A stretch of DNA of 64,000 nucleotides, taken from NCBI RefSeq assembly GCF_004022705.2, contig NZ_RZOY02000001.1, positions 254,956 to 318,955 on the forward strand, written 5' to 3'. Source of the DNA: Mesorhizobium sp. M2D.F.Ca.ET.226.01.1.1 (GTDB taxonomy: Bacteria > Pseudomonadota > Alphaproteobacteria > Rhizobiales > Rhizobiaceae). Below, one piece after another: positions 1 through 51,721 of this stretch. Position numbers and translations under genes: made by a program. The notes beneath the pieces are model-generated. The model was not told where the DNA came from. It ran no database searches and worked only from the letters and a program-made list of their open reading frames with translations. Every line of letters starts with the position of its first letter. The stretch's first letter is position 1.

Positions 1-678
1 ACCGACGTGGCATATGAGCCTGTGAGCGAGGCAGCTCGCGCAGCCGAAAAAGCTATTCGCGGGATCATAGCCGCCGACTATCCAATGGATGCAATGCTGG
101 GCGACCAATTTGGGCCGTCAGGATCAGGGCCGATCCAGTGGGTCATCGACCCGATCAATGGTGCAAAAGCGTTCCGGTGTGGGCTTCCGGTCTGGGGCAC
201 CCTGATAGGCCTCACGATAAATGGCCGCGCCACGATGGGCATGATGAGCCAGCCCGATACCGGGGAATGCTTCTGGTCCGACGGCACGAGATCGGTGTGT
301 TGCTCTGACCAGGGCGAGACGGTTTTGAAAACAAGTGGCGTCCAGCTGCTCTCGGAGTCGATTTGCCACACGAATTCTCCTGAACCCTTCGCACGCCGTC
401 CGGGCAGGGGGTTTGCTCGGCTCGCCTCGTCGGTCAAATTCACGAGGTACGGCGGCGACTGTTACGCATTCGCCATGCTCGCGGCCGGCCAGATCGACCT
501 TTGCGTGGAACTTTCCTTGCAAGCCTGCAACATCGCAGCGCTGATCCCGGTCATCGAGGCCGCCGGCGGTGTGGTCACCCGCTTCGACGGGGGCCGCGCG
601 GAGCGAGGTGGAAACATCCTGGCATCGGCAAACGCCATCCTGCATGAGGCAGCGCTGCGGGTGCTCAATGACATCTGA
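1..678 (+). CDS. Degenerate inositol-monophosphatase/HisN-like protein (5' partial)
   Basis: The open frame is already running at the left edge (Thr-Asp-Val-Ala-Tyr in frame before the GTG at 7), so the start lies outside the window. It belongs to the Mg-dependent inositol monophosphatase/histidinol-phosphatase fold and aligns along its whole length with the intact copy at 50930-51721. The metal-binding residues are largely gone: GEE has become GDQ (residues 32-34 counted from position 7), DPVDGT has become DPINGA (48-53), and the C-terminal ligand Asp (PYDI) has become Asn (ACNI, Asn175). In the family the ligands are Glu, Asp, Asp and Asp; only one Asp survives. The frame is nevertheless open to a normal length. 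I infer a catalytically dead paralogue or a gene in early decay. No function is assigned. Confidence 0.75.
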   Translation, partial: TDVAYEPVSEAARAAEKAIRGIIAADYPMDAMLGDQFGPSGSGPIQWVIDPINGAKAFRCGLPVWGTLIGLTINGRATMGMMSQPDTGECFWSDGTRSVCCSDQGETVLKTSGVQLLSESICHTNSPEPFARRPGRGFARLASSVKFTRYGGDCYAFAMLAAGQIDLCVELSLQACNIAALIPVIEAAGGVVTRFDGGRAERGGNILASANAILHEAALRVLNDI

Positions 679-7619: not shown

Positions 7620-7792
7620 AGAAGTAGCTATCAATCGAACTGAATGCCGGTAGCTGGGTACTGCGATGGTGAATTGATTTGATCCCGGCGGCTCGTCTCG
7701 AACCATGGCGCCGATCGTATTTCACAGAGCCCAACTGGCGGCACTTTCGAACAGGGAGCTATCGGCGCGCGCCTTCGATCGTTCATAGACGA

Positions 7793-50929: not shown

Positions 50930-51721
50930 TTAGGCGTTCAGGACAAGTTCATTCAGAGCCAACCGATGCAGCGACGGCGTGGCCGCGGCAAGAACGGGGC
51001 CCCCTTCCTCAGCTCGCCCGCCGTCGAGACGTGTGATCACGCCCCCGGCCTTCTCGATGATCGGGATAAGGGCCACGATGTCATAGGGCTGCAGAGAAGG
51101 CTCGAGTGCTAGGTCGATCCGGCCCGCCGCCAGCATGGCGAAGGCATAACATTCGCCCCCGTAGCGGGTCATCTTGACGGCGCTGTTCAGCCGCTCGAAG
51201 CCAGCTTTGAGATCGCCGTGAAAATGCTCGGGCGAGTTGGTGTGGAGAATGGCGTCGGACAGCGTGTCGATGCCGCGCGTCCTGAGCGGCTGTGGCTCGC
51301 CGCCGCGCTGACGCCATGCGCCAGTCGCGTCCGCCCAGAACCGCTCCCCGATATACGGCTGGCTGAGCATCCCCATCTCGGCGCGCCCGCGATTGGTCAG
51401 ACCGATGAGCGTTCCCCAGACGGGAATGCCGCAGATAAAAGGTCGGGTTCCGTCCACGGGATCGAGCACCCAACGCCAGTCGCTGCCGCCGCCCGTTTCA
51501 CCGAATTCCTCGCCAAGCACCGAATGGTCCGGAAATTCTGCCGTTATGGCTGCACGCAAGGCGATCTCGGCTTCGCGATCCGCCTCGGTCACCGGATCGA
51601 ATCTATACCCGGGCTTCGGCTTGGTCTCGACGGCAAGCTCGACTAGATAGCGCGGCAGGGTTTCGGCATCCGCCAGATCAGCGAGGCGGTGCAAGAATGT
51701 TGAGTCCGGTAGCTTCGACAT
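50930..51721 (-). CDS. Inositol-monophosphatase-family protein, HisN-like (intact)
   Basis: A 263-residue Mg-dependent phosphatase. Metal ligands are all present: Glu71 (LGEEFG), Asp87 and Asp90 (LDPVDGT) and Asp214 (PYDIVAL); Thr92 positions the nucleophilic water. GIPVWGTLIGL and TRYGGECYAFAMLAAGRIDL are typical of the histidinol-phosphatase (HisN) branch. GGAAGGA precedes ATG 51721. It lies 71 bp after the GMC oxidoreductase, away from other histidine genes, so a sugar-phosphate or polyol-phosphate substrate is as likely as histidinol phosphate. The degenerate copy at 1-678 is its paralogue. Confidence 0.88.
   Translation of the reverse strand: MSKLPDSTFLHRLADLADAETLPRYLVELAVETKPKPGYRFDPVTEADREAEIALRAAITAEFPDHSVLGEEFGETGGGSDWRWVLDPVDGTRPFICGIPVWGTLIGLTNRGRAEMGMLSQPYIGERFWADATGAWRQRGGEPQPLRTRGIDTLSDAILHTNSPEHFHGDLKAGFERLNSAVKMTRYGGECYAFAMLAAGRIDLALEPSLQPYDIVALIPIIEKAGGVITRLDGGRAEEGGPVLAAATPSLHRLALNELVLNA

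Follow-up and report, generated by a model that had tools for sequence, protein, structure and literature searches.

Why does an inositol-monophosphatase (IMPase)-family gene stay open after most of its metal ligands have been replaced, and what might its product still do? The gene lies at the start of a 64,000-nucleotide stretch of Mesorhizobium DNA, referred to here as the window. The original prediction, made from the letters of that stretch, described an IMPase paralogue with three changed metal ligands and a lost threonine and offered two explanations, a pseudoenzyme that keeps some role or a gene in very recent decay; a dead active site conserved among orthologues, together with purifying selection, was to speak for the former. 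The window contains the 3' 225 codons of a 275-codon gene, with the frame open throughout, as had been claimed; the ATG is at L009:6807, 150 nt ahead of the window start, and the stop ends at 7634. The degenerate gene belongs to the family by its Pfam PF00459 (Inositol_P) score of 112.4 bits (gathering cutoff, 27). Its best NCBIfam profile was the HisN histidinol-phosphatase TIGR02067, at 234.6 bits, under the equivalog cutoff of 275.15, against which a paralogue in the window scored 286.7 bits. The source genome (G000) has eight IMPase-family matches, among which the degenerate gene scored lowest. Five of the seven other members were aligned (L001, L002, L003, L006, and L007, with L004 and L005 left out), and D-P-x-D-G-T was intact in all five.

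The three-metal site of the family is built from Glu70, Asp90, Asp93, and Asp220 (human IMPase numbers) and a main-chain carbonyl, with Thr95 located at the phosphate, as described in the excerpted text of PMC2080633. Alignment with intact relatives bore out the earlier description of the site: three of the four side-chain ligands are altered (E70D, D93N, and D220N), and the threonine of DPVDGT is Ala (A105, human T95). Compared with the residues of an active member (E70, D90, D93, D220, and DPxDGT), the degenerate protein has Asp, Asp, Asn, and Asn, with DPINGA as its motif. The residue numbers first given for the fragment (33, 51, and 175) each fall short by two and should read 35, 53, and 177; those of the intact copy (E71, D90, and D214) agreed with our renumbering, in which its D90 is human D93. 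Two points are added to the earlier description: the intact copy at 50930-51721 is on the minus strand, and a further position, which we take to be Asp47 of human IMPase, is changed to Ala62. In our reading of the alignment, Ala62 falls at the position of Asp46 of Corynebacterium glutamicum HisN, which is strictly conserved across all IMPase-like proteins analyzed in the excerpted account of PMC5516325. The same account describes the motif-5 aspartate of HisN as important for activity; at the RYGG[DE] position, matched to motif 5 by eye, Asp is found in G000, G036, and G113 and Glu in G025 and G103 (genomes introduced below). Overall, 73 alignment columns were invariant in 12 intact relatives, and 27 of these, active-site positions included, were altered in at least one of five orthologues. 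Judged from these residues, phosphatase activity has probably been lost. The features are collected in Table 1.

Table 1. Coordinates of the degenerate gene, its site positions, and the comparison copy in the window
Feature	Position	Strand	Remark
Degenerate IMPase-family gene, codons 51-275 and stop	1..678	+	First 50 codons at L009:6807-6956
Codon 62, Ala, presumed human D47 position	34..36	+	Asp in 12/12 intact relatives
Codon 85 (window-ORF residue 35), Asp replacing ligand Glu, human E70	103..105	+	By alignment
Codon 100 (window-ORF residue 50), Asp, sole side-chain metal ligand kept, human D90	148..150	+	By alignment
Codon 103 (window-ORF residue 53), Asn replacing ligand Asp, human D93	157..159	+	Common to five orthologues
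Codon 105 (window-ORF residue 55), Ala replacing Thr, human T95	163..165	+	Ala in G036 too; Met in other three orthologues
Constrained C-terminal segment, codons 171-275	361..675	+	G000 vs G036: 0 amino-acid, 7 codon differences
Codon 227 (window-ORF residue 177), Asn replacing ligand Asp, human D220	529..531	+	By alignment
Intact paralogue, 263 aa, DPVDGT, full ligand set	50930..51721	-	Comparison copy, 53% identity over degenerate-protein residues 17-271

Next, the distribution of the gene was examined. A protein search of 146 Mesorhizobium genomes (E ≤ 1e-75) matched 10 genomes. Orthologues in the same neighborhood were present in five: G000 itself, G036 (93% identity), G025 (73%), G103 (72%), and G113 (71%). 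These five split from the rest with 100% support in protein and nucleotide trees, and none has an internal stop or frameshift. G208, G070, and G222 (63 to 64% identity) have all ligands and lie in other gene neighborhoods, with an MFS-type transporter gene adjoining the copies of G208 and G070; the remaining two matches were in G012 and G099 (54%). Wider sampling of 394 family and 397 order genomes, overlapping draws that include part of the 146-genome genus set, returned at E ≤ 1e-84 only G000 itself and the 54% copy of G012. Among plasmid records, 76 had a match at E ≤ 1e-30, none of which reached 60% identity.

All five orthologues have DPING with Ala or Met as the next residue, and in all of them the GAC of codon 103 has become AAC or AAT (Asp to Asn). 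Since D93N recurs in five of five, the ligand changes are more than chance. Asp90 is kept throughout, and Glu70 and Asp220 are kept with it in G025, G103, and G113 (in G113, Gln replaces the second Glu). Among the orthologues, Glu70 and Asp220 were lost in G000 and G036 only, and the full set of losses is found in those two. Thr95 was most simply lost twice, it appears, changing to Met in one branch and to Ala in the other. An orthologue with full ligands, with disruption confined to the source strain, was not found among the 146 genus genomes; the intact copies of G208, G070, and G222 do not serve as such a case because they form a sister group in other gene neighborhoods.

To measure selection, codon models were fitted with our own scripts rather than a published package, on the protein-tree topology (the nucleotide tree pairs G208 with G222 at 40% support), and any column with a gap was dropped, which left 260 to 263 codons. 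In the 10-taxon, 260-codon model, omega was 0.058 in the background, 0.024 on the stem, and 0.183 in the crown of the orthologue clade; a crown omega of 1 was rejected (p = 6e-43), and stem and crown as a single class differed from the background (p = 4e-8). On the tips of G000 and G036, which follow their shared losses, omega was 0.179 (versus 1, p = 3e-8), and each of the five tips taken alone had an omega below 1 (p from 3e-5 to 0.02). Because the background omega of the 10-taxon model leans partly on long, near-saturated branches, an 8-taxon run with the two long outgroups removed was added, and it gave 0.076 for the intact trio versus 0.189 for the crown (p = 2e-5). The crown omega is thus 2.5 to 3 times that of the intact relatives, and selection is clearly weaker.

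Pairwise omega (NG86) of the degenerate gene was 0.19 to 0.24, higher than that of its operon neighbors in most comparisons. The corresponding ranges were 0.08 to 0.15 for a SerC-SerA fusion, 0.04 to 0.07 for a second aldehyde dehydrogenase, 0.02 to 0.06 for a GMC oxidoreductase, 0 to 0.07 for a DapA-family protein, 0.04 to 0.11 for a proline-racemase-family protein, 0.11 to 0.14 for Ldh_2, and 0.10 to 0.19 for alanine racemase. The synonymous distance between the two halves of the orthologue clade was 0.8 to 1.0. The orthologue and dN/dS check proposed at the outset found what was to speak for a pseudoenzyme, a degenerate site shared under purifying selection: all five orthologues are open, carry D93N, and are without Thr95, and omega remained 0.18 after full ligand loss.

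The relaxation was not uniform along the protein. With segment borders picked after inspection of the alignment, crown omega was 0.272 versus a background of 0.055 in residues 1 to 100 (p = 3e-12 with 10 taxa; p = 5e-6 with 8) and 0.176 versus 0.061 in residues 101 to 170 (p = 9e-5 and p = 0.03). No relaxation was detectable in residues 171 to 275 (0.083 versus 0.056; p = 0.2 with 10 taxa and 0.26 with 8). Four of the five altered site positions fall in residues 1 to 170, and Asn227 falls in the constrained segment. In Mycobacterium tuberculosis SuhB, the dimer interface consists of helix 6, strand 10, and neighboring loops, with helix 4 (excerpted text of PMC2080633). By homology, mapped by the order of the elements, residues 171 to 275 would hold most of these interface elements, helix 4 excepted. 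An overlapping antisense gene was considered as a source of the C-terminal constraint and was rejected, as stops occur in all three reverse frames in 10 of 10 sequences; the longest reverse-strand open run varies between species.

The fold is predicted to be retained. A model of the 93% identical orthologue (L040) had a mean pLDDT of 81 and a pTM of 0.83 (87.6 and 0.88 for the intact window copy), and among its best 50 matches the top folds were plant and mycobacterial histidinol-phosphate phosphatases, with target-normalized TM-scores of up to 0.91. A disordered former metal loop, suggested by low pLDDT at residues 104 to 112, was dismissed, as the intact copy is weak there too (mean of 55 in block 91 to 100).

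The gene stands at the end of a catabolic-looking operon. Upstream on the same strand are genes for a solute-binding protein, two permeases, a MalK-type ABC ATPase, an aldehyde dehydrogenase (assigned by similarity to the second one), the GMC oxidoreductase, and the DapA-family protein, and further genes for the proline-racemase-family protein (best profile, trans-3-hydroxy-L-proline dehydratase, under cutoff), the second aldehyde dehydrogenase, and the 982-residue SerC-SerA fusion (L009:3859-6807). The Ldh_2-family and alanine racemase genes lie downstream on the opposite strand. In G000, G036, G025, and G113, the fusion stop shares a base with the ATG of the degenerate gene (TGATG), an arrangement through which the two may in practice be translationally coupled. 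Between G000 and G036, the synonymous difference was only 0.012 to 0.014 in the DapA-family and proline-racemase-family genes (L066 4179-6226 versus L053 2396-4442) and was 0.12 in the flanking aldehyde dehydrogenase and 0.27 in the GMC oxidoreductase; the low divergence of that stretch suggests recent recombination there.

The fusion is full length in 15 of 199 genomes, the source genome included, and relatives of its SerA-like half alone occur in many other genus genomes. In G103 (L082, minus strand), a large internal deletion cuts the fusion to an 83-codon in-frame remnant, with TGATG kept, and a genome search did not find a second fusion copy. The degenerate gene beside the deleted fusion is open, with a tip omega of 0.19. 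At 11 of the 15 complete-fusion loci, an IMPase-family gene was not found alongside (for one of the 11, in G136, the downstream sequence spans ∼1.4 kb; contig-end fusion pieces in G154 are outside the 15). A role tied solely to the SerC-SerA fusion is weakened by these fusions and by G103, where the gene is kept without the fusion, which argues against a role bound only to that enzyme.

Intact HisN-like copies (L043-L046, L083-L086) were seen beside DeoR-type regulators and MFS-type transporters or near HisD-like and ThDP-type genes, names that here and for the MFS-type neighbors above come from by-eye reading of the sequences rather than from family-library assignments. Such neighborhoods suggest that many genes labeled histidinol-phosphatase may be catabolic phosphatases.

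Since the ligands are mostly lost and yet the gene is intact in five related species, its product probably has some job other than phosphate removal. The reading that we favor, with a probability of roughly 0.6, is that the gene encodes a stepwise-disabled but retained pseudoenzyme of the HisN-like branch of the IMPase family, one whose translation is tied to that of a catabolic operon and which works by binding a protein or a ligand. In this scenario, a HisN-like phosphatase gene that was still active would have come to the operon end, and the change of Asp93 to Asn would predate the divergence of the five species; Thr95 would have been lost as well, and Glu70, Asp220, and the position-62 Asp would have gone in the lineage of G000 and G036. 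A working three-metal center would no longer be built. The protein would be made in step with the operon via the TGATG stop-start overlap. It would work by means of the conserved C-terminal part, most probably in pairing with or scaffolding another protein; sensing of a pathway metabolite is a less likely mode. Against this reading we count the weaker selection, seen in an omega above that of intact relatives and, in most comparisons, of the operon neighbors, and the rarity of the gene (5 of 146 genus genomes). The more specific form of this proposal, in which the metal-site part has been let go, the C-terminal dimer-face part is held for a suggested role as a noncatalytic partner in a Mesorhizobium catabolic operon, and intermediate stages of loss survive in living relatives, we would give an even chance.

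The main rival is a weakly active or respecialized phosphatase that uses one or two metals, or an easier substrate, and in which selection still acts on catalysis; residual activity could persist above all in the less altered G025, G103, and G113. Purifying selection, the retention of Asp90 in all five orthologues and of Glu70 and Asp220 in three, and the conservation of residues 171 to 275, to which the inositol-contacting loops of SuhB map by our own mapping (from the excerpted text of PMC2080633), are all consistent with it. We nevertheless find it doubtful: G000 and G036 retain one of the four side-chain ligands and are without Thr95, and relaxation is strongest in the two segments that house most of the altered positions. 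In addition, mutations at the same metal sites dramatically lowered the activity of M. tuberculosis SuhB (PMC2080633, in the excerpt of which the exact substitutions are not given).

A variant of the partner reading, in which the degenerate protein forms a heterodimer with the intact paralogue of the window, is unlikely. All five genomes with the degenerate gene carry such a paralogue 32 to 57 kb away on the same contig, and among the other 141 genomes only G099 and G012 have comparable 54% matches (E ≤ 1e-75), the sister copies of G208, G070, and G222 aside; the G012 and G099 copies sit among genes like those beside the window paralogue, and the constrained segment includes interface elements in our mapping. 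Both genes, however, belong to one shared region, so their co-occurrence may be plain linkage. Moreover, the E threshold was chosen with the degenerate protein as query, and paralogues elsewhere that match it more weakly may have escaped the search.

Slow decay, with the gene unneeded, on its way out, and open by chance, is also unlikely, and less probable than either alternative above. It would fit the omega above that of intact relatives and of the neighbors in most comparisons, the progressive loss of ligands, and the fusion already broken upstream in G103. It fits poorly with an omega below 1 at five of five tips, with the lack of any stop or frameshift in the five orthologues despite synonymous distances of 0.8 to 1.0, and with the undetectable relaxation in residues 171 to 275; in G103 the gene is open under its tip omega of 0.19 despite the upstream deletion, which may be recent. 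Recent decay in one strain, the second explanation of the original prediction, is excluded by the five open orthologues and by the purifying selection found in the codon models.

The pseudoenzyme that we favor resembles several known systems in part. HisN-type histidinol-phosphate phosphatases (PDB 5eq9, 5zon, and 5yht) provide its best NCBIfam profile (TIGR02067) and its nearest solved relatives, both by sequence (5eq7, 4n81, and 5yht) and by fold; it differs from them in scoring under the 275.15-bit cutoff and in its three altered metal ligands and threonine. Escherichia coli SuhB, an IMPase that also takes part in rRNA transcription, is a precedent within the superfamily for a phosphatase-independent role (excerpted texts of PMC4807359 and PMC2834668). 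Unlike the degenerate protein as we read it, E. coli SuhB has demonstrated IMPase activity (excerpt of PMC4807359); its structures share 25 to 26% identity with the model, and the degenerate gene sits in an operon of catabolic appearance. With pseudophosphatases in general, as defined in the excerpted text of PMC10211241, it shares a fold that is predicted to be kept, lost catalytic residues, and a retained gene. In the papers surveyed, the pseudophosphatases named (STYX, MK-STYX, PTPRU, and PHLPP) are protein phosphatases and the word IMPase does not occur. Literature searches for a pseudoenzyme among inositol monophosphatases found no such case in titles, the beginnings of abstracts, and excerpts of PMC2834668.

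Pseudoenzymes are known in many families; here, a single genus spans graded ligand loss, from copies with all ligands (G208, G070, and G222), through one with D93N and T95M and the rest kept (G103), to those in which nearly all are lost (G000 and G036). With this series, one can ask what purpose a fold serves after its chemistry has been lost. A further lesson is that the automatic label "histidinol-phosphatase" on HisN-like genes should not be taken as a tested function.
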